Assembly (NCBI RefSeq): GCF_030463535.1
Contig: NC_132892.1
Location: 31,632,436-31,696,435 of the forward strand
Direction: 5' to 3'
Origin: Salminus brasiliensis
Lineage: Eukaryota > Chordata > Actinopteri > Characiformes > Bryconidae
DNA length: 64,000 bases
In this document: piece by piece, positions 14,741 through 49,533 of the stretch
Layout: each line of letters starts with the position of its first letter
Position numbering within the stretch: the stretch's first letter is position 1
Position numbers and translations under genes: made by a program
Notes under the pieces: model-generated
The model's database searches: none
What the model was told of the DNA's origin: nothing
Seen by the model: the letters and a program-made list of their open reading frames with translations, nothing else

Positions 14741-15239
14741 ACAAAAATGTATAGGTTCTTATCTGAAATGGACCAAACATCTCAGCTTCATCTCTTCCTC
14801 TGTCTGTTTCATCTTCTTCTCTCTTTGCTTCATCTCTTCCTCTTTTTAGTACAGCTTATCCTCTCTCTGGTTCCTCTTTATATATCTCTGATTAATGTCC
14901 TCCTCTCTCTTCTCCACGTCTTCCTGTCTTTACTTTTCTTTTTCTGTCTCTCAGCCTCTCTATGTTGTCCTCATTTTGTTTATCCTGTTTTATATAACTG
15001 TTTTTCTGTCCTCCACCAGTCTCATTTTCTCATCGTCCTTTCCTGTATATGGACTCTTAACTATCTGCCACTATTAATATTACCACTATTAACTCTCACT
15101 ACTCTCATTACTCTGACCATCACTGCCATGACTATATTAAGTTCTACTACACCATGATTAATACTATAATGATTATGATCAGAGCAGTATAGATGGTTTG
15201 GTAACTTTTTTTAATCAATAATTAATAAATAGTTCTGAT
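14741..15239. other. Pyrimidine-rich low-complexity DNA
   Basis: CT-rich sequence giving Leu/Ser-rich spurious frames. No gene or recognised element. Confidence 0.6.
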
Positions 15240-15470: not shown

Positions 15471-16686
15471 TATACTCTTTACCGATCCCTTGCTCAAATG
15501 TGATTCCTGCTCCTGCTTGGACTCCATGTGTAGTTTTTCGTTGTTCTGTAGTTCTTGTAAGGTCTTGCACCCTTCAGAGTATTACTTCATCTCTGATTTC
15601 TGTTTCTCTCTCCTTTACATTTATTTCATACTTGTAGTGAGTTCATGTTTGGCCTCTCTTTTCCCCTCTGATTGTCTTCAAAATCAAATAATTCACTCTC
15701 CACAACTTCATCCCAGTCTCAATGTCAAATGTGCCACTGTCCCATTTCTCAGTGTCACGTGTCCTGCAGGTGTTGGTCAGCCTTTGCGATCTTCAGCCCT
15801 GGTCAGCATTACTGTAGGTGTTACAGAGCATGAGCTTGAGCCGAGGACAGACGTTTTCTTCCATGTTTTCTAAAATCAGTGTAATGATCTGATTTATTGT
15901 TCTCCAGATCCACAAACACTTTCCTTATGGCTTCATCTGAGTCTACAGGAAAGTCAGATAACAATCCATGACTCAAAATACACAACCTTGATTAACCCCT
16001 TAAACAGCCAATGTCCCACCGGTGGGTGGAAAGTGTTATTACACACTTCTATTACCAGAGAATAGCTCCACCCGCTTGTACAGAAGTCCTTGTAGCTACT
16101 GAATAATACACCTCGGTGTGTAATAAGCCTTGGAGAGGGGTTGCTACCAAGTTTGTCTTCAGTTTAGAAGCTAATCTGTTCATTTTTCGGAGCAGTGTTC
16201 TTACTTTTAGGAGGTGGCAGTTTTACTAGGAAGGAATGAACTAAAAACACACGACTGAAAACCACTATAGAAAAAGTCTAATGGTTTATTTCCAACAGCT
16301 ACAGCACTGCACCAGTAGACGCTACAGCTGGCAATGGGATCTTGGTGGTTAACAAAAAGCTCTATAAAGTTTTCTTCACAGACTCTTATACTTGCTCCTG
16401 TGTGCTCAGTGTTCAGTAGATGCATAGTTCAGTCTTCCCTGTTTAACTCACTCACTCACCTTTAGCAGGCTGAAGATTCTCCACATGTGGGAGCTCCTAG
16501 CTCTAGTCATTAATGCTTCATATCAGTGACGTGTGTCCTTGTACGTTTAAAACTGTGTGTTTAACAAAGGCTTTATTAAGCTTTACAACCTCAAGAAAAT
16601 GAGATCTATTACAATAAACAGTGCGTAACGTCTTAATATGCTGAAATACTACAAAAACATCACCACAATAATCATGACACATGTTT

Positions 16687-19600
16687 CTACATGTACGTAT
16701 CATACACTCTGTCTCTCAGGTCAGCGAGAGTCTGTTCTGAGAGCGTGCAGCGTAGTTCTGTCTGAATCTGCTGCTGGAGATCAGCCGAGCTGCAGAGTTT
16801 CAGCCTGTAGCAGATTCCTTTCTCACCGCTGCAGTTCCCCTTTGCTCCAGCAGAGGCAGCACTGAGACAATACTCTCTCTGTCTTTCACCTCTCTCTCTC
16901 TTTCTCTCTGTGTTCTGTTTCATTGGCACTGCTGGCATGTTCTGTTTTCCTGAGGAACCCTGGTTCTCTTGTGGACCTCCTGCTGGTCTCTGGACCTCTG
17001 GACGTCTCTCAGTCAGAAAGAGCTGATGACTCTGTTCTGCAAGTGTTTCTATCCAGGTTGTTTTACCCTGCTGGATTCTTCATGACCTGTGTGAGGGTGT
17101 GAGGAGTTAAAGCACAGAGTGAAGGGCAGCAGAAGAGCTTCTCGCAGTCCAGACTGAAAGATCCATTGAAACCAGGAGCTCTTCCTCTTCTCCTTCACCT
17201 GAAGAACATCAACACACTGCACTCAGCACTCTGTACATACTGAAACCTACAGGACATCATCACCTAACACACACACAGGCATCTGTCTCACATTGTGATT
17301 CTGTGTCTGCTTCATGGACTGGTGGTCATCTTCAGAGACACTGGACATTCCTCCTTCATCCTCAAACCTGTCAATGAAATGAAACTGTTCATGTCCAGCA
17401 GTTTATTCACTTGTTCAACTGTACGTCTATGAGAGCAGCCCGTTTGACCTTAGTGTGATCTGTCCAGACCTTTTATACAGTTGTGGAAGTTTGGAAGGTT
17501 ACAGTCCATCACTATTGACATGAACACCAGAGCACTGGTCATTCCAAAATCTTAATGTTAGCCTAATGAGATCATTTTACAACCATCTCTGATGTGTGTT
17601 TGGGGGTTAATGTCCTGTTGGAACACCTAATTGTGTTCGGGTTTCAACCATCTAGCTGACGGTTTGGGCTTTTGCTAAAGTATTCTGAGGTAGTCCTCCT
17701 TCTACATTATTCCACTCACTTGGTACAGCTCCAGCGCCAATGATTCTACCCTCACCATGTTTAACAGCTGGCTCCCAGAGACGTTTCTGACATGTGGACA
17801 TCTATGACCATCTTTCTCAGATCTACCCTGTGCTCCTTAGACTTCCTGTTGTACTGTGTGTTGGTAAGTCCAGTGAGAGCTATCACACAAACCCTTTTTA
17901 TATGGATCAGCTTCCAGATGTAGCCAATCATGATCACTAGCAGCAAGCTAAGAGACCTTGGTCCTGGCCTTGGGATTTTCAGCATCACTGAATTAATCAT
18001 TTTAATTGGTGTATGAATATTTATGAACCTGAATGTATGTATTTGACAACAAATTAAATTAGTAAAGACAAGAAATCAACAACATAAGAAGACATGAAAA
18101 CCCAAGACCTCCAGTGAGCAGCCAAAGGCCACAATGGCAAGGAGAAACTCCCACAGAGCCGGAGGAAGAAACCTTGGAAGGAACCAAGATTCACAAGGGG
18201 GACCCATCCATCCTCCTCTGGTGGAAGTCTTTTTACACAGTCCAGCTCTGAACTGTAGCCTTTAAATCCCATTATTATATTTCTATCAGACAGTAAATCT
18301 TTAAATATGTATTATTACACAATAAAGAACTGTCTCTCACCACTGAGGAGAAAATGAGAGATGATCTTCAAAAGTGTTTGGTGTGTCCATGGACTGACGG
18401 TCAGCAGAGGTCAGGGAGTTCTGGTCACTGAAAACACAGAACCACAGAAAGTGATCAGTTTGTACTCTGAACTCTGAGTAATCTCCTAGTTGACTCTGTA
18501 TGATGATGACGAGTGAGTGGAAACAGGAAATCGCTGCATTAGATAATGAAACTCTGTCAATGCAGAAGATCATTCACTCCTAAAAAGCAGCTGCTCAACA
18601 AGAACCAATCAGAAATAATGAGAAGTACTATAAGATCATCTGGAACCTTTCAGGAACGTGCAGATCAGTCCTGGAGCTCCACTCAGGGTCCTGAGAGTTT
18701 TCCAGTTCTGGCATACAGCTCTCCTCCTCTTCAGCTTAGAGGAAGAACAAACACAGGGAGTCCTGTAAACACCACACTCAGCTTCCTGAGACACACCTTC
18801 CTTCACTGAACACCTGAAGCTGATCTGAAATAGAGAGAAGCTGGAGGTGTGTGATCAGTTCCTCCAGATCAGGACTGAACACGTCTGACTCTCACGTTCT
18901 GCTCTCAGTTCTTCACAGTAAGAGTAGAAATGTAGAACCCAATAGCAGAACGTTAAGAAAAGCCCTACAGAGTGTGGTGATGGATGGGATTCCAGACTAA
19001 AAGCATTGATAAAGGTTGTCTACAATTGCTGGAATAGAAAACTGGGGATTTCTCTTGTCATGGTTGAATTATGAGAGTTTCTTACATGGAAGTGACAAAC
19101 CGTGAACCTCAAACACTGCTGTTCCTCCTTCAAAAAAAAAAAAAGAACATCTAGCAGAACCAACATCTGGAAAACGAGCCAATTCCAAAACCCCAAAACT
19201 GTTACATCACAATCTTGACGTGTTATATTTCCACCCTCCAAATACCTGTAAACCCAACCCACTAGAGTTAGGAGCAGGTGCTTTGGAGTTGATGGAATGA
19301 GACGTTTGCTACAGACGGCTACAACAGCCTGCCTTCTTCTCAACTGCACTGTCAAATGGATAATGACCCAGGATGAACCTGAACGTGGCGATGAGCTAAC
19401 TATGTCTTAAAGGTACATACAGTGAGAGCCATCACACAAACCCTTTTTATGTGGATCAGCTACCAGCTGTAGCCAATCATGATCACTAGCAGCAATCTAA
19501 GAGACCTTGGTCCTGGCCTTGGGATTTTCAGCTCCACTGAATTAATAATTTAAAAAAGTGTATGAATATTTATGAACCTGAATGTATATATTTGATCAAA

Positions 19601-20201
19601 AAACAGACTAGAGTCCCTCAGCTGAACATAACACTGAGCTAAACTCACATCAGAAGGGAAACACCGGCTAATTTATTACTGGTAAGATTCAACGAAGCCA
19701 AAGGCAAGCGTGTCGGGGAAAGGCTATAAGCTGGCCGGTTACAATCTCTTCAGCTTACTAACAAGAGGACAGCAGCACTATAATTACTATTACTATTATT
19801 ATTATTATTATTATCATTAGTATAACTACTATATATATATTTAAAAATAACATTGTTTTTGTTACAGTGTTTTATACTATGATATAATTTGTAGCTTCTG
19901 TAGGCCGAGCTTATCGCTCTCTGTAAATGGAAACTCTGAGGTATAACAGGGTGGTAAATAAGCTTTTAATATCCAACAGCCCATTTTTCACCCCAACCAA
20001 CTTCACACACTTATTATTTCATATCAACCAACAACTTAAATACTCAGTAAAAGCAAACAGGGCACGTGTAAGTCTTCTTGATCAAAGCTGCTGTCTGTAG
20101 AACTGCTGCAACCAGCTTCAGGTCAAGAACGCTTCCTCTGAAGTTCTCACTGCTGTGTTTCACTGCTGTGGTTTCCTTGCTCAGTTTCCGCTCTTCTCAT
20201 C

Positions 20202-20239
<38 letters not shown>

Positions 20240-21028
20240 TACAGTGTGTTACACAATCATTTGAGATCTTTCAGGGCCTGAACCCAGTCCAACCCTAATG
20301 CACTTCTGCTACACACTTCCACTAGGGGGAAAGTCCAGGTTGAGGGGTGATCAGACTCCTCTCTGTTTGATAATCTCCTCCTTTCTTCTCTGCTTTTCCT
20401 TTCCTCCATTTCTTCTGATCACATCTCACTTCTCTCTAACAGACGTCTGCAGATAAAGACGTGCCTCCAGTCTTCATCCTGAGAGATCTGATGCTGGATC
20501 AGTCCCAACAGCAGCTGTGCTCCCCTGCATGATGGACTGCTCCAAGTGGAAGTGTGTAGGGGGAGTGAGAATTAAGTGAATTGGGAGAGGCAGGTTAAAC
20601 AGAGCCACACCTACAGAGCTCACCGCAACAAGCAGAGCTCCTCACAGCCAGAGCAGAACTGCAGAGTGGAGCTGAACGCTGAACACGACAGTCCCTACAC
20701 TCACTTTCCTGCAGACACTTTTCAGAGTCCTGGATCAGACTGAGGAGAACAACACACCCCTCAGAGCTTCTGCTGGAGGTCAGGAGGTCTAATCAGGAAG
20801 GTGCTGGATGACTTTAACCATCTGATTCTTTAGATGGATAAATCAATGTACAAGTGCATCAGATCTGTCCTGTCTAAATAAAAGTGCTCGTTTTCCTTTT
20901 CAGAAATAATTCAATAAAGATAATATTTAATGATGGGCAGCTTTCCAAAATAAAAGTCCAGTAGATCATATTTCCTGAGGATCTACTCTCATGTACTTAC
21001 CAGCATCTCTGACTGGAGCTGTCTCCAT
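16687..21028 (-). CDS. GIMAP-like gene without GTPase domain, copy 1
   Basis: Six exons, all phase-compatible: 21028-21001 (METAPVRDA, donor GTAAGTAC), a 28-nt exon at 18824-18797 (QLQVFSEG), 18427-18341 (SDQNSLTSADRQSMDTPNTF...), 17367-17292 (FEDEGGMSSVSEDDHQSMKQ...), 17198-17087 (VKEKRKSSWFQWIFQSGLRE, then LLLPFTLCF), and 16949-16687 (ends ADLRDRVYDTYM, stop). The sum is 594 nt, giving 197 residues. Exons 1, 3, 4 and 5 correspond in order and type to exons 1-4 of the GIMAP gene at 45219-51361 (MEMQAP start, SMDTPNTF DNA match, SVSE motif, membrane-like exon ending in phase 1). The last exon has no P-loop and matches nothing I know. If intron 5 is kept, a stop at 17051-17049 gives a 122-residue form. 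Function unknown; membrane association is possible. No transcript evidence. Confidence 0.5.
17580..17990 (-). mobile_element. Tc1-like transposase remnant
   Basis: CCTGTTGGAACACCTAATTG and the following TTTCAACCATCTAGCTGACG and CACCATGTTTAACAGCTGG segments match the antisense pattern of fish Tc1 transposase genes. No frame survives. The same remnant is at 25300-25700 and 32240-32650. A second, diverged copy is at 27240-27690 and 34240-34690, missing from unit copy 1. Confidence 0.5.
18050..18290 (-). repeat. Dispersed teleost repeat inside the 7-kb units
   Basis: CACAATGGCAAGGAGAAACT and GGAAGAAACCTTGGAAGGAA belong to the family at 15240-15470, reversed. Also at 25770-25975 and 32700-32965. 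Copy 3 carries a hairpin insertion in it. Confidence 0.6.
19790..19815. repeat. ATT microsatellite, variable between units
   Basis: (ATT)n here, longer at 27913-27965 and 34907-34968, where it is followed by AGT repeats. Length differs among the three tandem copies. Confidence 0.9.
20207..20240. repeat. GT microsatellite
   Basis: (GT)n in the block that begins CACTGCTGTGGTTTCCTTGC. Homologous tracts are at 22627-22681, 28347-28397, 35352-35393 and 37793-37850. The translated Cys-Val runs are artefacts of this repeat. Confidence 0.9.
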
Positions 21029-21064
21029 GACCAGTTCTTGCTCTTCTTGTTTGGGTTTTTTTTG

Positions 21065-21083
21065 GTTCAGTTTCACATTTATA
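21065..21083 (-). promoter_or_regulatory. TATA box and IRF-like site before copy 1 exon 1
   Basis: On the minus strand TATAAATG (21083-21076) is followed by GTGAAACTGAAC (21076-21065), close to an IRF element, about 40-55 bp upstream of the ATG at 21028. Copy 3 keeps the motif, while copy 2 has GTGAAACTCAAC. The IRF site would lie downstream of TATA, which is unusual, so its role is uncertain. Confidence 0.35.
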
Positions 21084-21681
21084 TGAGATCTTTAGGAGCC
21101 TGGACCCAATTCCACCCCAGCTTACTTCTGCTACACACTTCCACTAGGGACAATCCAAGTTCCTGGGGGGATCCAACTACTTACAGTGTTAGAACTCATG
21201 AAATTCCTGAGCAATTCATGCCTTAATCTGAATGAATTGTCTGATTTAATAGAAAAGCAACAGATACAATCAGTGAAACTCTCGTTCCAGTCTAAATTCT
21301 GAGAGATCTGATGCTGGATCAGGTGTAGAATCAGCTGTGCTCCCCTGCATGATGGACTGCTCCAAGTGGAAGTGTATAGGGGAAGTCAGTACAAGGTGAA
21401 TTTGGGCAACATCCCATGTTTGAAGCAGGAAGTCTGTGCTGGAGATCGAGCAGATGCCACACCCACAGAGTTCATATCAGCCATGTGTGTTTGAGATATT
21501 CAGATGTGAAATGTGAAAGTGCTGCTGTTCTTCATGCAGTTTTTAAACTCTGCTGTGATGTGGGGGTTCTGTGATCCAGAGCTGGAAAATCCAGCTGGAA
21601 AATCCAGTAAATCCAGCCAATCAGAGCAGAGCTCATTGTTACTTACATTCGGTCCAACAGCCCTTTTCCTGCAGACCCAGT

Positions 21682-21876
21682 TTAAAGTATGATCATGTTC
21701 TCCTGCAGTTCTGGATCAGACAGAACAACAGAGCTCAGAGGAGTCTCCTCTGGAATAGCTGAACCAGTCAGACCAGGAGGACCAGTGAACCACCACTGAT
21801 CCTCCTTAGAAACCCGTCTGTAGGAGACGAAGGGTGTGAGAGCTTCAGGGTAGAAGTGAAGTTGTTTCCCGCTCAA
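21682..21876 (-). other. 64-codon frame kept in all three units
   Basis: An open frame including FYPEALTPFVSY and WWFTGPPGLTGSAIPEE recurs with the same length at 29860-30054 and 36843-37037. Differences are few (for example R/S, Q/L, T/I). It lies about 650 bp upstream of exon 1 of each unit's gene. Related DNA in the 40-42.5 kb region reads in a different frame, which argues against coding. It may be an exon of an unrecognised gene or a non-coding module. Confidence 0.25.
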
Positions 21877-21912
21877 ATTTCAGTCACATGAACACTGAAC
21901 CAACAAGAGCTG

Positions 21913-21957
<45 letters not shown>

Positions 21958-22094
21958 AGGAACTTCTCTAAACATACTTTCCAGTCAACAAGTCAAGTCA
22001 CATCAGTCAATAATAAAGGCTGCAGATTCCTTTATGGCTTAAAAAACACCTGTATCAATAATATGTTATATAAAGTTCTCTTTAGAAGTATGGA

Positions 22095-22195
22095 GTAATG
22101 ATAATAATAATAATAACGATAATGATAATAATAATAACGGTAATGATAATAATAGTAATGATAACAATAACAATGATAATAATGGTAATAATGTC
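22095..22195. repeat. ATAATG-type microsatellite
   Basis: Imperfect ATAATAATG/ATAACG/GATAAT tract. Equivalent tracts at 23380-23433, 30305-30365 and 37248-37382 lie at the joins between tandem units and may have helped the units to misalign. Confidence 0.9.
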
Positions 22196-22628
22196 AAACA
22201 TTTTAAAGACGTCCTGCAGTTAAATGACATTCCTCCACCTCCTCCCGAAAAACGAATCCCATCCAGATAAGGCTACAGATTGCCTGGCTAAATGGAGGAG
22301 CACTGCTTTGTGAAACACCTCTCCAGATCTTGCTGCTCTTCTCATGTGTTTTTGTGTTCAGCAGAGTTGAGATCTTCAACACTTCAACCACTACGTTCTT
22401 CCTAATGATTTGTCTCTTCCAGCTTCTTCGGAGATGGCAGTATAGTTCTAAATATTAAAAGCACATTGAATTACTTGACACCCAACACACAACAAATGAT
22501 GACCTTCACATTGAGAAGATCTCTGACAGGAACTCTGACTCTCATTCTGAGGAGCCTGTCTTCTGAACTCAACTGGGTGTTTCACTGCTGTGGTTTCCTT
22601 GCTCAGTTCTTGTTATTCTCATTGATGT

Positions 22629-22685
<57 letters not shown>

Positions 22686-23188
22686 GTGTGTTACACAATC
22701 ATTTGAGATCTTTCAGGGCCTGAACCCAGTCCAACCCTAATGCACTGCTGCTACACACTTCCACTAGGGGGAAAGTCCAGGTTGAGGGGTGATCAGACTC
22801 CTCTCTGTTTGATAATCTCCTCCTTTCTTCTCTGCTTTTCCTTTCCTCCATTTCTTCTGATCACATCTCACTTCTCTCTAACAGACGTCTGCAGATAAAG
22901 ACGTGCCTCCAGTCTTCATCCTGAGAGATCTGATGCTGGATCAGTCCCAACAGCAGCTGTGCTCCCCTGCATGATGGACTGCTCCAAGTGGAAGTGTGTA
23001 GGGGGAGTGAGAATTAAGTGAATTGGGAGAGGCAGGTTAAACAGAGCCACACCTACAGAGCTCACCGCAACAAGCAGAGCTCCTCACAGCCAGAGCAGAA
23101 CTGCAGAGTGGAGCTGAACGCTGAACACGACTGAGTTCAGTCCCTACACTCACTTTCCTGCAGACACTTTTCAGAGTCCTGGATCAGA

Positions 23189-23189
<1 letters not shown>

Positions 23190-23240
<51 letters not shown>
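23190..23240. repeat. CA microsatellite at a block junction
   Basis: The sequence passes from GGATCAGACT straight into (CA)n and then into ACTTAGCAACTACTC. This shows where the extra end block of copy 1 was joined. Other CA tracts are at 21915-21955, 30091-30184 (with CT) and 37077-37114. Confidence 0.9.
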
Positions 23241-23241
<1 letters not shown>

Positions 23242-23433
23242 AGCAACTACTCTAAACATGCTTTCCGGTCAACAAGTCAAGTCACGTCAGTCAATAATAA
23301 AGGCTGCAGATTCCTTTATGGCTTAAAAACATCTGTATCAATAATATGTTATATACAGTTCTCTTTAGAAGTATGGAGTAATGATAATAATAATAACGAT
23401 AATTTGAATAATGGTAATAATAATGATAATAAT

Positions 23434-26400
23434 GCCACTGTCCCATTTCTCAGTGTCACATGTGTCCTGCAGGTGTTGGTCAGCCTTTGCGATCTTCAGC
23501 CCTGGTCAGCATTACTGTAGGTGTTACAGAGCATGAGCTTGAGCCGAGGACAGACGTTTTCTTCCATGTTTTCTATAATCAGTGTAATGATCTGATTTAT
23601 TGTTCTCCAGATCCACAAACACTTTCCTTATGGCTCTATCTGAGTCTACAGGAAAGTCAGATAACAATCCATGACTCAAAATACACAACCTTGATTAACC
23701 CCTTAAACAGCCAATGTCCCACCGGTGGGTGGAAAGTGTTATTACACACTTCTATTACCAGAGAATAGCTCCACCCGTTTGTACAGAAGTCCTTGTAGCT
23801 ACTGAATAATACACCTCGGTGTGTAATAAGCCTTGGAGAGGGGTTGCTACCAAGTTTGTCTTCAGTTTAGAAGCTAATCTGTTCATTTTTCGGAGCAGTG
23901 TTCTTACTTTTAGGAGGTGGCAGTTTTACTAGGAGGGAATGAACTAAAAACACACGACTGAAAACCACTATAGAAAAAGTCTAATGGTTTATTTCCAACA
24001 GCTACAGCACTGCTCCAGTAGACACTACAGCTGGCAATGGGATCTTGGTGGTTAACAAAAAGCTCTATAAAGTTTTCTTCACAGACTCGTATACTTGCTC
24101 CTGTGTGCTCAGTGTTCAGTAGATGCATAGTTCAGTCTTCCCTGTTTAACTCACTCACTCACCTTTAGCAGGCTGAAGATTCTCCACATGTGGGAGCTCC
24201 TAGCTCCTAGCTCTAGTCATTAATGCTTCATTTCAATGACGTGTGTCCTTGTACGTTTAAAACTGTGTGTTTAACAAAGGCTTTATTAAGCTTTACAACC
24301 TCAAGAAAATGAAATCTATTACAATAAACAGTGCGTAACGTCTTAATATGCTGAAATACTAGAAAAACAGCACCACAATAATCATGACACATGTTTCTAC
24401 ATGTACGTATCATACACTCTGTCTCTCAGGTCAGCGAGAGTCTGTTCTGAGAGAGTGCAGCGTAGTTCTGTCTGAATCTGCTGCTGGAGATCAGCCGAGC
24501 TGCAGAGTTTCAGCCTGTAGCAGATTCCTTTCTCACCGCTGCAGTTCCCCTTTGCTCCAGCAGAGGCAGCACTGAGACAATACTCTCTCTGTCTTTCACC
24601 TCTCTCTCTCTTTCTCTCTGTGTTCTGTTTCATTGGCACTGCTGGCATGTTCTGTTTTCCTGAGGAACCCTGGTTCTCTTGTGGACCTCCTGCTGGTCTC
24701 TGGACCTCTGGACGTCTCTCAGTCAGAAAGAGCTGATGACTCTGTTCTGCAAGTGTTTCTATCCAGGTTGTTTTACCCTGCTGGATTCTTCATGACCTGT
24801 GTGAGGGTGTGAGGAGTTAAAGCACAGGGTGAAGGGCAGCAGAAGAGCTTCTCGCAGTCCAGACTGAAAGATCCACTGAAACCAGGAGCTCTTCCTCTTC
24901 TCCTTCACCTGAAGAACATCAACACACTGCACTCAGCACTCTGTACATACTGAAACCTACAGGACATCATCACCTAACACACACACAGGCATGTGTCTCA
25001 CATTGTGATTCTGTGTCTGCTTCATGGACTGGTGGTCATCTTCAGAGACACTGGACATTCCTCCTTCATCCTCAAACCTGTCAATGAAATGAAACTGTTC
25101 ATGTCCAGCAGTTTATTCACTTGTTCAACTGTACGTCTATGAGAGCAGCACGTTTGACCTTAGTGTGATCTGTCTAGACCTTTTATACAGTTGTGGAAGT
25201 TTGGAAGGTTACAGTCAATCACTATTGACATGAACACCAGAGCACTGGTCATTCCAAAATCTTAATGTTAGCCTACTGAGATCATTTTACAACCATCTCT
25301 GATGTGTGTTTGGGGGTTAATGTCCTGTTGGAACACCTAATTGTGTTCGGGTTTCAACCATCTAGCTGACGGTTTGGGCTTTTGCTAAAGAATTCTGAGG
25401 TAGTCCTCCTTCTACATTATTCAACTCACTTGGTACAGCTCCAGCGCCAATGATTCTACCCTCACCATGTTTAACAGCTGGCTCCCAGAGATGTTTCTGA
25501 CTTGTGGACATCTATGACCATCCTTCTCAGATCTATCCTGTGCTCCTTAGACTTCCTGTTGTACTGCATGTTGGTAAGTCCAGTGAGAGCCATCACACTT
25601 TTTATATGGATCAGCTTCCAGATGTAGCTAATCATGATCACTAGCAGCAATCTAAGAGACCTTGGTCCTGGCCTTGGGATTTTCAGCACCACTGAATTAA
25701 TCAATTAAAATCAATTAATTAATTGGTGTATGAATATTTATGAACCTGATTGTATGTATTTGACAACAAATTAAATTAGTAAAGACAAGAAATCAACAAC
25801 ATAAGAAGACATGAACACCCAAGACCTCCAGTGAGCAGCCAAATGCCACAATGGCAAGGAGAAACTTCCACAGAACTGGAGGAAGAAACCTTGGAAGGAA
25901 CCAAGATTCACAAGGGGGACCCATCCTCCTCTTTTTACACAGTCCAGCTCTGAACTGTAGCCTTTAAATCCCATTATTATATTTCTATCAGTCAGTAAAT
26001 CTTTAAATATGTATTATTACACAGTAAAGAACTGTCTCTCACCACTGAGGAGAAAATGAGAGATGATCTTCAAAAGTGTTTGGTGTGTCCATGGACTGAC
26101 GGTCAGTGGAGGTCAGGGAGTTCTGGTCACTGAAAACACAGAACCACAGAAAGTGATCAGTTTGTACTCTGAACTCTGAGTAATCTCCTAGTTGACTCTG
26201 TATGATGATGACGAGTGAGTCTAAACAGAAAATCGCTGCATTAGATAATGAAACTCTGTCAAAGCAGAAGATCATTCACTCCTAAAAAGCAGCTGCTCAA
26301 CAAGAACCAATCAGAAATAATGAGAAGTGCTATAAGATCATCTGGAACCTTTCAGAAACGTGCAGATCAGTCCTGGAGCTCCACTCAGGGTCCTGAGAGT

Positions 26401-28348
26401 CTTCCAGTTCTGGCATACAGCTCTCCTCCTCTTCAGCTTAGAGGCAGAACAAACACAGGGAGTCCTGTAAACACCACACTCAGCTTCCTGAGACACACCT
26501 TCCTTCACTGAACACCTGAAGCTGATCTGAAATAGAGAGAAGCTGGAGGTGTGTGATCAGTTCCTCCAGATCAGGACTGAACACGTCTGACCCTCATGTT
26601 CTGCTTTCAGTTCTTCACAGTAAGTGTAGAAATGTAGAACCCAATAGCAGAACGTTAAGAAAAGCCCTACAGAGTGTGGTGATGGACAGGATTCCAGATT
26701 AAAGGCATTGATAAAGGTGGTCTACAAATGCTGGAATAGAAAACTGGGGATTTCTCTTGTCATGGTTGAATTGTGAGAGTTGTTTACATGGAAGCGACAA
26801 ACCGTGAACCTCAAACACTGCTCTTCCTCATTCAAAAAAAAAAAAAAAATAGACATCTAGCAGAACCAACATCTGGATAATGAGCCGATTCCAAAACCCC
26901 AAAACTGTTACATCAGAGTCTTGACGTGTTATATTTACACCCTCCAAATACCTGTAAACCCTAGTCAGAGCTGGTGAGTTAGGAGCAGGTGCTTCGGAGT
27001 TGATGGGATGAGACGTTTGCTACAGACGGCTACAACAGCCTGCCTTCTTCTCAACTGCACTGTCAAATGGATAATGACCCATGATGCACCTGAACGTGGC
27101 GATGAGCTAACTATGTCTTAAAGGTACAGCAGACCGTTGACTGTTACAGACTTCAGGAGAAGATGGTGGTGTTGATACTGGAGAGCGGCTCTTCAACCTC
27201 CAGACTCTGCTAGTTATGGGAATATAGGTTGCTACGGGAACCAGACCATCTCTGATGTGTGTTTGGGGTTCATGTCCTGTTGGAACACCCAATTGTGTTC
27301 GGGTTTCAACCATCTAGCTGATGATTTGGGCTTTTGCTAAAGAATTCTGAGGTAGTCCTCCTTCTACATTATTCAGCTCACTTGGTACAACTCCAACGCC
27401 GATGATTCTACCCTCACCATGTTTAACAGCTGGCTCCCAGAGACGTTTCTGACTTGTGGACATCTATGACAATCCTTCTCAGATCTACCCTGTGCTCCTT
27501 AGACTTCCTGTTGTATTGTGTGTTGGTCAGTCCAGTGAGAGCCATCACACAAACCCTTTTTATGTGGATCAGCTACCAGCTGTAGCCAATCATGATCACT
27601 AGCAGCAATCTAAGAGACCTTGGTCCTGGCCTTGAGATTTTCAGCACCACTGAATTAATCATTAAATTAGTGTATGAATATTTATGAACCTGAATGAATA
27701 TATTTGATCAAAAAACAGACTGGAGTCCCTCAGCTGAACCAAACACTGAGCTAAACTCACATCAGAAGGGAAACACCGGCTAATTTATTACTGGTAAGAT
27801 TCAACGAAGCCAAAGGCAAGCGAGTCGGGGAAAGGCTATAAGCTGACCGGTTACAATCTCTTCAGCTTACTAACAGCATATTGTGCTTAACAAGAGGACA
27901 GCAGCACTATAATTATTATTACAATTATTATTATTATTATTATTATTATTAGTAGTAGTAGTAGTATAGCTACTATATATATATTTAAAAATAACATTGT
28001 TTTTGTTACAGTGTTGTATACTATGATATAATTTGTAGCTTCTGTAGGCCGAGCTTATCGCTCTCTGTAAATGGAAACTCTGAGGTATAACAGGGTGGTA
28101 AATAAGCTTTTAATATCCAACAGCCCATTTTTCACCCCAACCAACATCACACACTTATTATTTCATATCAACCAACAACTTAAATACTCAGTAAAAGCAA
28201 ACAGGGCACGTGTAAGTCTTCTTGATCAAAGCTGCTGTCTGTAGAACTGCTGTAACCAGCTTCAGGTCAAGAACGCTTCCTCTGAAGTTCTCACTGCTGT
28301 GTTTCACTGCTGTGGTTTCCTTGCTCAGTTTCCGCTCTTCTCATCTAT

Positions 28349-28399
<51 letters not shown>

Positions 28400-30102
28400 G
28401 TGTGTTACACAGTCATTCGAGATCTTTCAGGGCCTGAACCCAGTCCAACCCTAATGCACTTCTGCTACACACTTCCACTAGGGGGAAAGTCCAGGTTGAG
28501 GGGTGATCAGACTCCTCTCTGTTTGATAATCTCCTCCTTTCTTCTCTGCTTTTCCTTTCCTCCATTTCTTCTGATCACATCTCACTTCTCACTAACAGAC
28601 GTCTGCAGATAAAGACGTGCCTCCAGTCTTCATCCTGAGAGATCTGATGCTGGATCAGTCCCAACAGCAGCTGTGCTCCCCTGCATGATGGACTGCTCCA
28701 AGTGGAAGTGTGTAGGGGGAGTGAGAATGAAGTGAATTGGGAGAGGCAGGTTAAACAGAGCCACACCTACAGAGCTCACCGCAACAAGCAGAGCTCCTCA
28801 CAGCCAGAGCAGAACTGCAGAGTGAAGCTGAACGCTGAACACGACTGAGTTCAGTCCCTACACTCACTTTCCTGCAGACACTTTTCAGAGTCCTGGATCA
28901 GACTGAGGAGAACAACACACCCCTCAGAGCTTCTGCTGGAGGTCAGGAGGTCTAATCAGGAAGGTGCTGGATGACTTTAATGGTTTCTGATTCTTTAGAT
29001 GGATAAATCAATGTACACGTGCATCAGATCTGTCCTGTCTAAATAAAAGTCCTTGTTTTCCTTTTCAGAAATAATTCAATAAAGATAATATTTAATGATG
29101 GGCAGCTTTCCAAAATAAAAGTCCAGTAGATCATATTTCCTGAGGATCTACTCTCATGTACTTACCAGCATCTCTGACTGGAGCTGTCTCCATGACCAGT
29201 TCTTGCTCTTCTTGTTTGGGTTTTTTTTGGTTGAGTTTCACATTTATATGAGATCTTTAGGAGCCTGGACCCAATTCCACCCCAGCTTACTTCTGCTACA
29301 CACTTCCACTAGGGACAATCCAAGTTCCTGGGGGGATCCAACCACTTACAGTGTCAGAACTCATGAAATTCCTCAGCAATTCATGCCTTAATCTGAATGA
29401 ATTGTCTGATTTAATACAAAAGCAACAGATACAATCAGTAAAACTCTCGTTCCAGTCTGAATTCTGAGAGATCTGATGCTGGATCAGGTGTAGCATCAGC
29501 TGTGCTCCCCTGTATGATGGACCGCTCCAAGTGGAAGTGTGTAGGGGAAGTCAGTACGAAGTGAATTTGGGCAACATCCCATGTTTGAAGCAGGAAGTCT
29601 GTGCTGGAGATCGAGCAGATGCCACACCCACAGAGTTCATATCAGCCGTGTGTGTTTGAGATATTCAGATGTGAAATGTGAAAGTGCTGCTGTTCTTCAT
29701 GCAGTTTTTAAACTCTGCTGTGATGTGGGGGTTCTGTGATCCAGAGCTGGAAAATCCAGCTGGAAAATCCAGCTGGAAAATCCAGTAAATCCAGCCAATC
29801 AGAGCAGAGCTCATTGTTACTTACATTCGGTCCGACAGCCCTTTTCCTGCAGACCCAGTTTAAAGTATGATCATGTTCTCCTGCAGTTCTGGATCAGACA
29901 GAACAACAGAGCTCAGAGGAATCTCCTCTGGAATAGCTGAACCAGTCAGACCAGGAGGACCAGTGAACCACCACAGATCCTCCTTAGAAACCCGGCTGTA
30001 GGAGACGAAGGGTGTGAGAGCTTCAGGGTAGAAGTGAGGTTGTTTCCCGCTCAAATTTCAGTCACATGAACACTGAACCAACAAGAGCTGAACACACACA
30101 TA

Positions 30103-30144
<42 letters not shown>

Positions 30145-30365
30145 CTCTCTCTCACACACACATACACACACACTCACACACACTTAGGAACTACTGTAGA
30201 CATACTTTCCAGTCAACAAGTCAAGTCACGTCAGTCAATAATAAATTAAAAACATCTGTATCAATAATATGTTATATACAGTTCTCTTTAGAAGTATGGA
30301 GTAATGATAATAATAATAACGATAATTTTAATAATGGTAATAATAATGATAATAATGATAATAAT
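23434..30365. repeat. Tandem 7-kb unit, copy 2
   Basis: 6932 bp. Compared with copy 1 it has the roughly 400-bp block at 27126-27530 and lacks the roughly 1-kb block that ends copy 1, which explains the different length. The gene in it is intact (24397-29193). Confidence 0.95.
24397..29193 (-). CDS. GIMAP-like gene without GTPase domain, copy 2
   Basis: Exons at 29193-29166, 26526-26499, 26129-26043, 25077-25002, 24908-24797 and 24659-24397. Lengths, phases and splice sites equal those of copy 1, so it also predicts 197 residues. Changes from copy 1 are few: one Ala to Thr in exon 3 (TSTDR), silent changes in exon 5, and a change in the SEQTL region's DNA that leaves the frame open. Surrounding intron DNA has several indels that the exons lack, which suggests the frame has been kept. 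The retained-intron stop lies at 24761-24759. A 64-codon frame at 30054-29860 lies upstream. Confidence 0.5.
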
Positions 30366-31326
30366 GCCACTGTCCCATTTCTCAGTGTCACATGTGTCCT
30401 GCAGGTGTTGGTCAGCCTTTGCGATCTTTAGCCCTGGTCAGCATTACTGTAGGTGTTACAGAGCATGAGCTTGAGCCGAGGACAGACGTTTTCTTCCATG
30501 TTTTCTATAATCAGTGTAATGATCTGATTTATTGTTCTCCAGATCCACAAACACTTTCCTTATGGCTCCATCTGAGTCTACAGGAAAGTCAGATAACAAT
30601 CCATGACTCAAAATACACAACCTTGATTAACCCCTTAAACAGCCAATGTCCCACCGGTGGGTGGAACGTGTTATTACACACTTCTATTACCAGAGAATAG
30701 CTCCACCCGTTTGTACAGAAGTCCTTGTAGCTACTGAATAATACACCTCGGTGTGTAATAAGCCTTGGAGAGGGGTTGCTACCAAGTTTGTCTTCAGTTT
30801 AGAAGCTAATCTGTTCATTTTCCGGAGCAGTGTTCTTACTTTTAGGAGGTGGCAGTTTTACTAGGAGGGAATGAACTAAAAACACACGACTGAAAACCAC
30901 TATAGAAAAAGTCTAATGGTTTATTTCCAACAGCTACAGCACTGCACCAGTAGACGCTACAGCTGGCAATGGGATCTTGGTGGTTAACAAAAAGCTCTAT
31001 AAAGTTTTCTTCAGACTCGTATACTTGCTCCTGTGTGCTCAGTGTTCAGTAGATGCATAGTTCAGTCTTCCCTGTTTAACTCACTCACTCACCTTTAGCA
31101 GGCTGAAGATTCTCCACATGTGGGAGCTCCTAGCTCCTAGCTCTAGTCATTAATGCTTCATATCAATGACGTGTGTCCTTGTACGTTTAAAACTGTGTGT
31201 TTAACAAAGGCTTTATTAAGCTTTACAACCTCAATAAAATGAGATCAATTACAATAAACAGTGCATAACGTCTTAATATGCTGAAATACTACAAAAACAT
31301 CACCACAATAATCATGACACATGTTT

Positions 31327-31529
31327 CTACATGTACGTATCATACACTCTGTCTCTCAGGTCAGCGAGAGTCTGTTCTGAGAGCGTGCGGCGTAGTTCTG
31401 TCTGAATCTGCTGCTGGAGATCAGCCGAGCTGCAGAGTTTCAGCCTGTAGCAGATTCCTTTCTCACTGCTGCAGTTCCCCTTTGCTCCAGCAGAGGCAGC
31501 ACTGAGACAATACTCTCTCTGTCTTTCAC

Positions 31530-31563
<34 letters not shown>

Positions 31564-34500
31564 GTGTTCTGTTTCATTGGCACTGCTGGCATGTTCTGTT
31601 TTCCTGAGGAACCCTGGTTCTCTTGTGGACCTCTTGCTGGTCTCTGGACCTCTGGACCTCTCTCAGTCAGAAACAGCTGATGACTCTGTTCTGCAAGTGT
31701 TTCTATCCAGGTTGTTTTACCCTGCTGGATTCTTCATGACCTGTGTGAGGGTGTGAGGAGTTAAAGCACAGGGTGAAGGGCAGCAGAAGAGCTTCTCGCA
31801 GTCCAGACTGAAAGATCCATTGAAACCAGGAGCTCTTCCTCTTCTCCTTCACCTGAAGAACATCAACACACTGCACTCAGCACTCTGTACATACTGAAAC
31901 CTACAGGACATCATCACCTAACACACACACAGGCATGTGTCTCACATTGTGATTCTGTGTCTGCTTCATGGACTGGTGGTCATCTTCAGAGACACTGGAC
32001 ATTCCTCCTTCATCCTCAAACCTGTCAATGAAATGAAACTGTTCATGTCCAGCAGTTTATTCACTTGTTCAACTGTACGTCTATGAGAGCAGCACGTTTG
32101 ACCTTAGTGTGATCTGTCTAGACCTTTTATACAGTTGTGGAAGTTTGGAAGGTTACAGTCAATCACTATTGACATGAACACCAGAGCACTGGTCATTCCA
32201 AAATCTTAATGTTAGCCTACTGAGATCATTTTACAACCATCTCTGATGTGTGTTTGGGGGTTAATGTCCTGTTGGAACACCTAATTGTGTTCGGGTTTCA
32301 ACCATCTAGCTGACGGTTTGGGCTTTTGCTAAAGTATTCTGAGGTAGTCCTCCTTCTACATTATTCAACTCACTTGGTACAGCTCCAGCGCCAATGATTC
32401 TACCCTCACCATGTTTAACAGCTGGCTCCCAGAGACGTTTCTGACTTGTGGACATCTATGACCATCCTTCTCAGATCTACCCTGTGCTCCTTAGACTTCC
32501 TGTTGTACTGCGTGTTGATCAGTCCAGTGAGAGCCATCACACAAACCCTTTTTATATGGATCAGCTTCCAGATGTAGCTAATCATGATCACTAGCAGCAA
32601 GCTAAGAGACCTTGGTCCTGGCCTTGGGATTTTCAGCACCACTGAATTAATCGTTTTAATTGGCATATGAATATTTATGAACCTGAATGTATGTATTTGA
32701 CAACAAATTAAATTAGTAAAGACAAGAAATCAACAACATAAGAAGACATGAAAACCCAAGACCTCCAGTGAGCAGCCAAAGGCCACAATGGCAAGGAGAA
32801 ACTCCCTGGAGGAACTGGAGGAAGTAGTTCCTCCAGGGAGTACATGGAGGAACTGGAGGAAGAAACCTTGGAAGGAACCAAGATTCACAAGGGGGACCCA
32901 TCCATCCTCCTCTGGTGGAAGTCTTTTTACACAGTCCAGCTCTGAACTGTAGCCTTTAAATCCCATTATTTTATTTCTATCAGTCAGTAAATCTTTAAAT
33001 ATGTATTATTACACAGTAAAGAACTATCTCTCACCACTGAGGAGAAAATGAGAGATGATCTTCAAAAGTGTTGGGAGTGTCCATGGACTGGCGGTCAGCG
33101 GAGGTCTGGGAGTCTTGGTCACTCTCACTGAAAACACAGAAACACAGAAAGTGATCAGTTTGTACTCTGAACTCTGAGTAATCTCCTAGTTGACTCTGTA
33201 TGATGATGACGAGTGAGTCTAAACAGAAAATCGCTGCATTAGATAATGAAACTCTGTCAAAGCAGAAGATCATTCACTCCTAAAAAGTAGCTGCTCAACA
33301 AGAACCAATCAGAAATAATGAGAAGTGCTATAAGATCATCTGGAACCTTTCAGGAACGTGCAGATCAGTCCTGGAGCTCCACTCAGGGTCCTGAGAGTCT
33401 TCCAGTTTTGGCATACAGCTCTCCTCCTCTTCAGCTTAGAGGCAGAACAAACACAGGGAGTCCTGTAAACACCACACTCAGCTTCCTGAGACACACCTTC
33501 CTTCACTGAACACCTGAAGCTGATCTGAAATAGAGAGAAGCTGGAGGTGTGTGATCAGTTCCTCCAGATCAGGACTGAGCACGTCTGACTCTCACGTTCT
33601 GCTCTCAGTTCTTCACAGTAAGAGTAGAAATGTAGAACCCAATAGCAGAACGTTAAGAAAAGCCCTACAGAGTGTGGTGATGGACAGGATTCCAGACTAA
33701 AGGCATTGATAAAGGTGGTCTACAAATGCTGGAATAGAAAACTGGGGATTTCTCTTGTCATGGTTGAATTGTGAGAGTTCTTTACATGGAAGCGACAAAC
33801 CGTGAACCTCAAACACTGCTCTTCCTCATTCAAAAAAAAAAAAATAGACATCTAGCAGAACCAACATCTGGAAAATGAGCTGATTCCAAAACCCCAAAAC
33901 TGTTACATCAGAGTCTTGACATGTTATATTTACACCCTCCAAATACCTGTAAACCCTAGTCAGAGCTGGTGAGTTAGGAGCAGGTGCTTCGGAGTTGATG
34001 GGATGAGACGTTTGCTACAGACGGCTACAACAGCCTGCCTTCTTCTCAACTGCACTGTCAAATGGATAATGACCCATGATGCACCTGAACGTGGCGATGA
34101 GCTAACTATGTCTTAAAGGTACAGCAGACCGTTGACTGTTACAGACTTCAGGAGAAGATGGTGGTGTTGATACTGGAGAGCGGCTCTTCAACCTCCAGAC
34201 TCTGCTAGTTATGGGAATATAGGTTGCTACGGGAACCAGACCATCTCTGATGTGTGTTTGGGGTTCATGTCCTGTTGGAACACCCAATTGTGTTCGGGTT
34301 TCAACCATCTAGCTGATGATTTGGGCTTTTGCTAAAGAATTCTGAGGTAGTCCTCCTTCTACATTATTCAGCTCACTTGGTACAACTCCAACGCCGATGA
34401 TTCTACCCTCACCATGTTTAACAGCTGGCTCCCAGAGACGTTTCTGACTTGTGGACATCTATGACAATCCTTCTCAGATCTACCCTGTGCTCCTTAGACT

Positions 34501-34917
34501 TCCTGTTGTACTGTGTGTTGGTCAGTCCAGTGAGAGCCATCACGCAAACCCTTTTTATGTGAATCAGCTACCAGCTGTAGCCAATCATGATCACTAGCAG
34601 CAATCTAAGAGACCTTGGTCCTGGCCTTGAGATTTTCAGCACCACTGAATTAATCATTAAATTAGTGTATGAATATTTATGAACCTGAATGAATATATTT
34701 GATCAAAAAACAGACTGGAGTCCCTCAGCTGAACCAAACACTGAGCTAAACTCACATCAGAAGGGAAACACCGGCTAATTTATTACTGGTAAGATTCAAC
34801 GAAGCCAAAGGCAAGCGAGTCGGGGAAAGGCTATAAGCTGACCGGTTACAATCTCTTCAGCTTACTAACAGCATATTGTGCTTAACAAGAGGACAGCAGC
34901 ACTATAATTATTATTAC

Positions 34918-34958
<41 letters not shown>

Positions 34959-35352
34959 GTAGTAGTAGTATAGCTACTATATATATATTTAAAAATAACA
35001 TTGTTTTTGTTACAGTGTTTTATACTATGATATAATTTGTAGCTTCTGTAGGCCGAGCTTATCGCTCACTGTAAATGGAAACTCTGAGGTATAACAGGGT
35101 GGTAAATAAGCTTTTAATATCCAACAGCCCATTTTTCACCCCAACCAACATCACACACTTATTATTTCATATCAACCAACAACTTAAATACTCAGTAAAA
35201 GCAAACAGGGCACGTGTAAGTCTTCTTGATCAAAGCTGCTGTCTGTAGAACTGCTGTAACCAGCTTCAGGTCAAGAACGCTTCCTCTGAAGTTCTCACTG
35301 CTGTGTTTCACTGCTGTGGTTTCCTTGCTCAGTTTCCGCTCTTCTCATCTAT

Positions 35353-35395
<43 letters not shown>

Positions 35396-36189
35396 GTGTG
35401 TTACACAGTCATTCGAGATCTTTCAGGGCCTGAACCCAGTCCAACCCTAATGCACTTCTGCTACACACTTCCACTAGGGGGAAAGTCCAGGTTGAGGGGT
35501 GATCAGACTCCTCTCTGTTTGATAATCTCCTCCTTTCTTCTCTGCTTTTCCTTTCCTACATTTCTTCTAATCACATCTCACTTCTCACTAACAGACGTCT
35601 GCAGATAAAGACGTGCCTCCAGTCTTCATCCTGAGAGATCTGATGCTGGATCAGTCCCAACAGCAGCTGTGCTCCCCTGCATGATGGACTGCTCCAAGTG
35701 GAAGTGTGTAGGGGGAGTGAGAATGAAGTGAATTGGGAGAGGCAGGTTAAACAGAGCCACACCTACAGAGCTCACCGCAACAAGCAGAGCTCCTCACAGC
35801 CAGAGCAGAACTGCAGAGTGGAGCTGAACGCTGAACACGACTGAGTTCAGTCCCTACACTCACTTTCCTGCAGACACTTTTCAGAGTCCTGGATCAGACT
35901 GAGGAGAACAACACACCCCTCAGAGCTTCTGCTGGAGGTCAGGAGGTCTAATCAGGAAGGTGCTGGATGACTTTAATGGTTTCTGATTCTTTAGATGGAT
36001 AAATCAATGTACACGTGCATCAGATCTGTCCTGTCTAAATAAAAGTCCTTGTTTTCCTTTTCAGAAATATTTCAATAAAGATAATATTTAATGATGGGCA
36101 GCTTTCCAAAATAAACGTCCAGTAGATCATATTTCCTGAGGATCTACTCTCATGTACTTACCAGCATCTCTGACTGGAGCTGTCTCCAT
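31327..36189 (-). pseudogene. GIMAP-like gene without GTPase domain, copy 3 (last exon frameshifted)
   Basis: Exons at 36189-36162, 33524-33497, 33127-33035, 32021-31946 and 31852-31741 keep frame and splice sites. Exon 3 is 93 nt here (two extra codons, SESDQDSQTS). The last exon, 31603-31327, is 277 nt instead of 263 because its CT tract near 31531-31563 is 14 bp longer. This shifts the frame, and translation ends soon after at a TGA. The short retained-intron form (stop at 31705-31703) is unaffected. The copy could therefore still make the N-terminal protein. I label it a pseudogene only for the spliced form. Confidence 0.5.
32801..32841. repeat. Perfect 16-bp hairpin, only in copy 3
   Basis: ACTCCCTGGAGGAACT (32801-32816) and AGTTCCTCCAGGGAGT (32826-32841) are perfect inverted repeats with a 9-bp spacer. 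Copies 1 and 2 lack the second arm. It looks like a snap-back (template-switch) insertion. Confidence 0.85.
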
Positions 36190-37073
36190 GACCAGTTCTT
36201 GCTCTTCTTGTTTGGTTTTTTTTTGGTTCAGTTTCACATTTATATGAGATCTTTAGGAGCCTGGACCCAATTCCACCCCAGCTTACTTCTGCTACACACT
36301 TCCACTAGGGACAATCCAAGTTCCTGGGGGGATCCAACTACTTACAGTGTCAGAACTCATGAAATTCCTCAGCAATTCATGCCTTAATCTGAATGAATTG
36401 TCTGATTTAATACAAAAGCAACAGATACAATCAGTGAAACTCTCGTTCCAGTCTGAATTCTGAGAGATCTGATGCTGGATCAGGTGTAGAATCAGCTGTG
36501 CTCTCCTGCATGATGGACCGCTCCAAGTGGAAGTGTGTAGGGGAAGTCAGTACGAAGTGAATTTGGGCAACATCCCATGTTTGAAGCAGGAAGTCTGTGC
36601 TGGAGATCGAGCAGATGCCACACCTACAGAGTTCATATCAGCCATGTGTGTTTGAGATATTCAGATGTGAAATATGAAAGTGCTGCTGTTCTTCATGCAG
36701 TTTTTAAACTCTGCTGTGATGTGGGGGTTCTGTCATCCAGAGCTGGAAAATCCAGCTGGAAAATCCAGTAAATCCAGCCAATCAGAGCAGAGCTCATTTT
36801 TACTTATATTCGGTCCAACAGCCCTTTTCCTGCAGACCCAGTTTAAAGTATGATCATGTTCTCCTGCAGTTCTGGATCAGACAGAACAACAGAGCTCAGA
36901 GGAATCTCCTCTGGAATAGCTGAACCAGTCAGACCAGGAGGACCAGTGAACCACCACTGATCCTCCTTAGAAACCCGGCTGTAGGAGACGAAGGGTGTGA
37001 GAGCTTCAGGGTAGAAGTGAGGTTGTTTCCCGCTCAAATTTCAGTCACATGAACACTGAACCAACAAGAGCTG

Positions 37074-37116
<43 letters not shown>

Positions 37117-37790
37117 AGGAACTACTGTAGACATACTTTCTAGTCAACAAGTCAAGTCAGTCAATAATAAAGGCTGCAGATTCCTTTATGGCTTAAAAAA
37201 CACCTGTATCAATAATATGTTATATACAGTTCTCTTTAGAAGTATGGAGTAATGATAATAATAATAACGATAATGATAATAATAGTAATGATAATGATAA
37301 TGATAATAATAATAACGATAATGATAATAATAGTAATGATAATGATAATAATAGTAATGATAATGATAATAATGGTAATAATGTCAAACGTTTTAAAGAC
37401 GTCCTGCAGTTAAATGAGTAATCCCATCCAGATAAGGCTACAGATTGCCTGGCTAAATGGAGGAGCACTGCTTTGTGAAACACCCCTCCAGATCTTGCTG
37501 CTCTTCTCATGTGTTCTTTGTGTTCAGCAGAGTTGAGGTCTTCAACACTTCAACCACTACGTTCTTCCTAATGATTTGTCTCTTCCAGCTTCTTCGGAGA
37601 TGGCAGTATAGTTCTAAATATTAAAAGCACATTGAATTACTTGACACCCAACACACAACAAATGATGACCTTCACACTGAGAAGATCTCTGACAGGAACT
37701 CTGACTCTCATTCTGAGGAGCCTGTCTTCTGAACTCAACTGGGTGTTTCACTGCTGCGGTTTCCTTGCTCAGTTCTTGTTATTCTCGTTG

Positions 37791-37848
<58 letters not shown>

Positions 37849-38405
37849 ATAGTGTGTTACACAGTCATTCGAGATCTTTCAGGGCCTGAACCCAGTCCAA
37901 CCCTAATGCACTGCTGCTACACACTTCCACTAGGGGGAAAGTCCAGGTTGAGGGGTGATCAGACTCCTCTCTGTTTGATAATCTCCTCCTTTCTTCTCTG
38001 CTTTTCCTTTCCTCCATTTCTTCTGATCACATCTCACTTCTCTCTAACAGATGTCTGCAGATAAAGACGTGCCTCCAGTCTTCATCCTGAGAGATCTGAT
38101 GCTGGATCAGTCCCAACAGCAGCTGTGCTCCCCTGCATGATGGACTGCTCCAAGTGGAAGTGTGTAGGGGGAGTGAGAATTAAGTGAATTGGGAGAGGCA
38201 GGTTAAACAGAGCCACACCTACAGAGCTCACCGCAACAAGCAGAGCTCCTCACAGCCAGAGCAGAACTGCAGAGTGGAGCTGAACGCTGAACACGACTGA
38301 GTTCAGTCCCTACACTCACTTTCCTGCAGACACTTTTCAGAGTCCTGGATCAGACTGAGGAGAACAACACACCCCTCAGAGCTTCGGCTGGAGGTCTGAT
38401 CAAGA

Positions 38406-40681: not shown

Positions 40682-41434
40682 AGTCAACAAGTCAAGTCAA
40701 GTCAGTCAATAATAAAGCCCAGAGGTAAGGACTGCTTGTTAGTAATGTTCCTCAGCTCTTCTCCAGTAGGCTCTTAGCCTCCCTCCCATCACAGAAATGT
40801 GTATTTAAGAATAAGTGTGTGTGTGTGTGTGTGTGTGTGTGTTCAGGTGGTTTGTTCAGTGTTCATGTAAGCAGGAAACCACCTTCTATCCTGACGCTTT
40901 CACACCTACACTCCTACAGCCGGGTTTATATGAAGGATCTGTGATGGTTCACTGGTCCTCCTGGTCTGACTGGTACAGCTACACAAGTGGAGACTTCTCT
41001 GAGCTCTGTTTTTCTGTCTGATCCAGAACTGCAGAAGAAAAATATCATATTTTAAGCTAAAACAAATCAAACATTCAGCGATCTGACAAAAAACATACTT
41101 CCACTTAGGAGAATCTAGGTTGCAAGGGTGATCAAACTGCTGCGTAAGATGAACATGATATAACAAGCATACTAACATTTCCCCTACAAAAACAGAATTA
41201 CAGGAGTTAATCTGATCGATCTCTTTCAAACAAGACATTTATTTAACTATAGCGAATGTTTTATTCAAGTCAAAATGTCAAAATGAGGTAAAGCTGTACC
41301 AGTCAGACCAGGAGGACCAGTGAACCATCACAGATCCTTCATATAAACCCGGCTGTAGGAGTGTAGGTGTGAAAGCTTCAGGGTAGAAGTTAGGTAGTTT
41401 CCCGCTCACATAGCCATGGAACAAACAAGAGCTG

Positions 41435-49500: not shown

Positions 49501-49533
<33 letters not shown>

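Follow-up and report, generated by a model that had tools for sequence, protein, structure and literature searches.

The closest described counterparts of the locus considered here are the vertebrate GIMAP genes (AIG1 family, PF04548), a family defined by its G domain; some members carry a membrane-anchoring hydrophobic segment, which is C-terminal in mammals according to the excerpt of PMC8201404 consulted. A second counterpart is offered by the zebrafish NLR-B30.2 genes, whose N-terminal peptide repeats of ~30 residues are encoded by single exons and shuffled between groups, as described in the consulted part of Howe et al. 2016 (PMC4852459). Among the titles and abstract openings of the literature searched, no GTPase-less GIMAP gene is named. 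The present analysis concerns a stretch of 64,000 nucleotides (nt) from Salminus brasiliensis (NCBI RefSeq assembly GCF_030463535.1, contig NC_132892.1, C15:31632436-31696435; hereafter the window, in whose positions unit coordinates are given), where three tandem units on the minus strand adjoin a GIMAP gene. The units share with this family exon 3, compatible phases, the adjoining position and the strand, and differ from it in having no detected G domain, the family-defining feature.

Each unit is best read, with a probability of roughly 0.57, as a five-exon gene whose product (122 residues in units 1 and 2, 124 in unit 3) would be a GIMAP-like N-terminal segment without the G domain. A first-pass annotation of the window had proposed six coding exons per unit (28+28+87+76+112+263 = 594 nt, 197 codons plus stop), the last of them a new exon ending LRDRVYDTYM in place of the G domain. 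Its tandem array is borne out, with exons lying where it had placed them and pairwise differences between units at 159 of 6371, 168 of 6667 and 103 of 6825 aligned sites (2.5, 2.5 and 1.5%). The features of the units are listed below; percentages give the rank of a splice site among the GT or AG sites of the minus strand of the window, scored with general consensus weights not derived here.

21001-21028 (-): unit 1 exon 1 (METAPVRDA), with the ATG; donor CTG/GTAAGT in the top 0.3% of GT sites
18797-18824 (-): unit 1 exon 2 (DQLQVFSEG); acceptor 1.2%, donor 0.7%
18341-18427 (-): unit 1 exon 3 (DQNSLTSADRQSMDTPNTF...), homologous to GIMAP exon 3
17292-17367 (-): unit 1 exon 4, identical across the three units; weak match to GIMAP exon 4
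17049-17198 (-): unit 1 exon 5 with read-through to the stop, the proposed terminal coding exon (exon 5 of the first-pass annotation is 17087-17198)
16687-16949 (-): unit 1 exon 6 of the first-pass annotation, re-read as part of the 3' untranslated region
16572-16577 (-): unit 1 AATAAA, possible polyadenylation signal
29166-29193 (-): unit 2 exon 1
26499-26526 (-): unit 2 exon 2
26043-26129 (-): unit 2 exon 3
25002-25077 (-): unit 2 exon 4
24759-24908 (-): unit 2 exon 5 with read-through to the stop
24397-24659 (-): unit 2 counterpart of first-pass exon 6, re-read as 3' untranslated
24282-24287 (-): unit 2 AATAAA
36162-36189 (-): unit 3 exon 1
33497-33524 (-): unit 3 exon 2
33035-33127 (-): unit 3 exon 3, 93 nt, nearer the GIMAP form (ESDQDSQ / DSDQNTQ)
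31946-32021 (-): unit 3 exon 4
31703-31852 (-): unit 3 exon 5 with read-through to the stop
31327-31603 (-): unit 3 counterpart of first-pass exon 6, frame shifted, with 14 nt more of AG repeat
31212-31217 (-): unit 3 AATAAA

The exon series keeps an open frame in all three copies, and the substitutions among them follow a coding pattern. Across exons 1-5 of the first-pass annotation, the copies differ by seven synonymous and three nonsynonymous changes (expected synonymous share 0.246, P 0.003), and the other two frames give ratios of 2:8 and 1:9. The 369-nt read-through coding sequence differs at 4, 8 and 8 sites between pairs, with ratios of nonsynonymous to synonymous substitution rates (dN/dS), the quantity singled out by the first-pass annotation, of 0.08, 0.08 and 0.15, not near 1; a Fisher test on this sequence (7/75 vs 3/291 sites) yields P values of 0.0008 for the pooled data, 0.001 for unit 1 against unit 3 and 0.03 for unit 1 against unit 2. 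The eight splice sites that join exons 1-5 in each unit rank within the top 0.3-5.3% of the 3820 GT and 4601 AG sites. The earlier argument that the splice sites fit perfectly carries little weight, since near-identical copies cannot provide independent agreement and the six-exon chain has a poor last acceptor. Taken as sequence, exons 1-5 look coding, and the units may be expressed.

Searches of the whole genome (1.07 Gb, 103 contigs; match counts are lower bounds) place exons 1, 2, 3 and 5 of this series almost entirely within the array. At the DNA level, exons 1 and 2, each taken together with flanking sequence, and exon 5 match the three units only, and exon 3 matches four places, the three units and the GIMAP gene. 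A protein search with GIMAP exon 3 finds no place beyond these four; the known relatives themselves reach E 0.06-0.24, a level at which more remote ones would escape detection. The proposal of a new family holds to the extent of three local copies in this genome, as far as was searched. The main rival explanation takes the units for relics, truncated GIMAP copies without the G exon that are untranslated or yield non-coding RNA only and whose frame has not yet decayed. Young duplicates at 1.5-2.5% divergence, the lack of a detected G domain and the failure of exons 1, 2, 3 and 5 to reveal further unit copies in the genome are all consistent with non-functional copies; the synonymous excess (dN/dS about 0.1) and a frame retained in three copies despite an in-frame 6-nt difference in exon 3 argue against them. 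We regard relics as a serious possibility that falls well short of even odds.

Two features of the array stand as observations in their own right. The 81 bases around exon 2 (18780-18860, 26482-26562 and 33480-33560) are 100% identical across units, against the overall divergence of 1.5-2.5%. Extra copies of a 300-nt segment lie at 20196-20495, 22638-22937, 28352-28651, 35348-35647 and 37804-38103; the segment resembles the 5' flank of exon 1 by eye, and its copies are possible alternative promoters. No match over the Rfam gathering scores was found in the window.

The proposed end of the gene differs from that of the first-pass annotation. Without a splice at the end of exon 5, all three units read ...SSHPHTGHEESSRVKQPG and then stop, an identical 38-nt extension adding 12 residues, and an AATAAA follows 472-486 nt past this stop (at 16577, 24287 and 31217). 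The alternative of six coding exons and 197 residues, with a new C-terminal exon replacing the G domain, draws on the 594-nt open chain with AG/GT borders in units 1 and 2, on the AATAAA downstream, and on a codon usage score of 0.194 for the exon 6 frame (null mean -0.251), above 63 of 64 null open frames, the exception scoring 0.220. This coding-like composition is not frame specific, given that the +1 frame scores higher (0.250). Furthermore, the exon 6 acceptor is matched or surpassed by 35.4% of AG sites, and no acceptor scoring above -2 occurs within 16850-17080 of unit 1. The six-exon chain stands in units 1 and 2 and fails in unit 3, where a 14-nt expansion of the AG repeat lengthens the last exon to 277 nt and brings the frame to an early stop. 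The last 61 codons of exon 6 show one synonymous and two nonsynonymous changes, hence no synonymous excess. No Pfam domain over the cut-off was found in the exon 6 frame, nor AIG1 in the frames of units 1 and 3; beyond the three units its one match in the genome, at E 0.06, falls in the AG-rich part, and against viral contigs it gives a single 24-residue match (54%, L001), attributed to chance. Exon 6 as a new coding exon is accordingly rejected as the best reading, on its acceptor, the unit 3 frameshift, its substitutions and the want of a convincing relative, and the 197-residue product appears improbable. A read-through of exon 5 to an identical stop in three copies is simpler than the exon 6 splice, and exon 6 is probably untranslated, its assignment to the 3' untranslated sequence being much preferred to the six-exon model.

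The neighbouring GIMAP gene retains its G domain and provides the template for the comparison. Its six-exon model encodes 427 residues, with modelled splice sites ranking from 0.1 to 13.0%, and its phases equal those of the six-exon unit chain, partly by construction, since the frame guided the manual choice of GIMAP exons 2 and 4.

51331-51361 (-): GIMAP exon 1 (MEMQAPMKLS)
47736-47835 (-): GIMAP exon 2, tentative, chosen by hand; acceptor 13.0%, donor 9.2%
47431-47526 (-): GIMAP exon 3
46788-46845 (-): GIMAP exon 4, chosen by hand; acceptor 6.0%, donor 0.2%
46199-46319 (-): GIMAP exon 5, moderately hydrophobic
45219-46093 (-): GIMAP G-domain exon (Pfam AIG1, E 5e-51), the last of the gene at 45219-51361

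An open 399-residue frame of a Tc1-like transposase (52476-53672, minus strand; Pfam DDE_3 and HTH_Tnp_Tc3_2) lies directly upstream of this gene.

Common descent of the N-terminal exons rests chiefly on exon 3. Over 75 nt, the unit and GIMAP versions of this exon are 76% identical (E 3e-10 in a search of the window; dN/dS 0.37-0.46), and none of 839 null segments, drawn from open AG-GT segments at 1-15000 and 52000-64000, scores as high. Exon 3 is clearly homologous by sequence to its GIMAP counterpart. The exon is 87 nt long in units 1 and 2, 6 nt longer in unit 3, and 96 nt in the GIMAP gene. For exon 1, the starts of the three units each reach 45 in comparison with the GIMAP start context; among 2273 ATG contexts, only four inside the GIMAP stretch itself lie near or above this value (140, 128, 104 and 44), and the best unrelated context after them reaches 39. 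Exons 1, 4 and 5 are probably common to the units and the GIMAP gene. The exon-by-exon parallel and the relatedness by descent that the first-pass annotation had proposed are thereby significant for exon 3, weaker and probable for exons 1, 4 and 5, and absent for exon 2; its observations overall are partly confirmed, and its interpretation is partly supported.

Several observations weigh against the five-exon reading and its GIMAP ancestry, in addition to the coding-like composition of exon 6. Exon 2 shows no similarity to the tentative GIMAP exon 2, with 2193 of 2407 null segments scoring as high. The resemblance of exon 4 to GIMAP exon 4 is modest, its score being reached by 39 of 1705 null segments (11 of 324 within unit 1), as is that of exon 5 to GIMAP exon 5 (34 of 1053; 6 of 167 within unit 1). 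The changes are few, only 10 in exons 1-5, and seven of the eight coding differences between units 1 and 3 fall in exon 3. In this exon unit 3 shows 7 differences over 87 sites against unit 1 and the same number against unit 2, more than the divergence of non-exon sequence, which suggests conversion from another copy; the exon may have been copied from another version of the gene, in which case its changes may not be independent. By codon usage, exons 3 and 5 give no coding signal and exon 4 stands out only slightly in frame; the scoring, trained on 39 open reading frames (8559 codons), failed to separate such short exons from non-coding sequence, and a PYD control scores 0.121 in its true frame. 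Finally, the exon 5 donor (10.4%) is about as strong as that of GIMAP exon 5 (9.4%), so splicing from exon 5 is possible; for the same reason it may be an old donor without a partner. Such a donor might also join a distant exon outside the unit, in another unit or gene, placing the true C-terminus elsewhere. The similar donor strengths speak for such a splice; the only G domain that tblastn finds in the window is that of the GIMAP gene, which lies upstream of the units, although no systematic search for other exons was made. We consider a distant exon very improbable.

The lack of a G domain, as the first-pass annotation had recognized, withstands direct search: with tblastn, the GIMAP G exon matches only itself in the window at E <= 1. 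A candidate remnant of the domain in the 3' region of unit 1 was rejected as not clearly above shuffled sequence, its score being reached by 66 of 200 shuffles at the DNA level and 11 of 200 in translation, the translated comparison falling in a low-complexity coil stretch. The G exon has no match among the viral contigs. Structurally, the predicted five-exon product consists of an acidic N-terminal segment, with 15 D/E against 3 K/R among residues 1-73, and then a short basic, moderately hydrophobic stretch that is not clearly a membrane span. The usual hydropathy cut-off for such a span is 1.6, and the best 19-residue means of both the unit (1.07) and the GIMAP exon (1.32) fall below it, leaving the earlier description of this exon as membrane-like unconfirmed.

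GIMAP genes are abundant elsewhere in this genome, which contains at least 150 AIG1 matches and at least 125 FISNA matches. The shared exons were compared with 20 stretches of 9.9-10 kb, each at and upstream of another G exon from among the AIG1 matches, and also with eight 3.6-kb GIMAP loci and one further locus (L014). No relative was found at E <= 0.01 (DNA) or E <= 1 (protein), a result that would miss exons lying further upstream. Under looser settings, the matches listed from other GIMAP loci are short and at chance level for exons 1-5, and of AG-repeat type for exon 6.

The NLR-B30.2 genes raise a different origin, in which the shared exons would be fish N-terminal peptide-repeat exons moved by exon shuffling. 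In both systems a fish immune family encodes short N-terminal peptides in exons of their own, as far as the consulted part of PMC4852459 describes the repeats, and the window contains parts of an NLR gene at 55894-63657 on the plus strand (a PYRIN exon, a FISNA-NACHT-winged helix-HD2 exon and a PRY-SPRY exon). Repeats are present in two of the three NLR loci fetched from this genome, and no such repeats were found by pattern in the third (L047); one locus, L048 (C11:36058400-36061400), has several copies of the type VSVKSDRSIGEPPALSSG. The shuffling of repeat exons described in the consulted part of Howe et al. 2016 makes such a transfer conceivable, the repeats that lie upstream of FISNA in two NLR loci look, by eye, like the S..D.SM..P..F pattern of exon 3, and in a first rough averaged-BLOSUM scan with 20-mers the fraction of null segments scoring as well was 0.035 for exon 4 and 0.06-0.14 for exon 3 (full range 0.035-0.38, with 6000 null segments sampled). 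A profile built from 16 repeats of the two loci, however, scores exons 3 and 4 at random level: of 5000 null segments, 1243-2028 do equally well (scores were obtained for 3685 of the 5005 sequences, the remainder being treated as lower-scoring). The unit exons thus differ from the repeats in showing no profile similarity; with exons 3 and 4 both missed by the profile, a common origin is not supported, and the peptide-repeat origin is rejected as extremely improbable.

The remaining open frames of the window lie outside the units. A 1295-residue frame at 7501-11388 (plus strand) contains many copies of a 15-residue coil repeat of the type KRVREEEEEKRKELE, and its first 322 residues have no Pfam match at E <= 1. 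The 176-residue frame at 11594-12121 (plus strand), with no Pfam match, ends in KKGKKECVIS, which we take to be CaaX-like. On the minus strand, a duplicated stretch (40906-41238 and 42124-42456, starts 1218 nt apart) carries an identical 110-residue open frame.

The five-exon reading suggests a simple history for the units. The unit gene would end at the point where the GIMAP gene splices into its G-domain exon, and its most likely origin would be a GIMAP copy that lost this exon, rather than a gain of the shared exons by the unit. The old exon 5 donor would now be read through for 12 residues to the stop, with first-pass exon 6 becoming 3' untranslated sequence, and the five-exon gene would then have given rise to the three tandem copies. 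Because the neighbouring GIMAP protein carries a similar segment ahead of its G domain, competition for the partners of this segment is the likeliest role, and we tentatively propose that the product, as a putative decoy or modulator, competes with full-length GIMAP for proteins binding the N-terminal segment, thereby damping or localising GIMAP. The fuller proposal is more doubtful: that a recently tripled local gene makes the GIMAP N-terminal segment only and might act, judging from its predicted product, as a GTPase-less competitor or scaffold, a dominant-interfering partner in fish immunity. If the units are untranscribed, they represent an ordinary truncated duplicate. If this GTPase-less neighbour is under coding constraint, it points to a function for the GIMAP N-terminal segment itself, and would give a simple test of GIMAP regulation.

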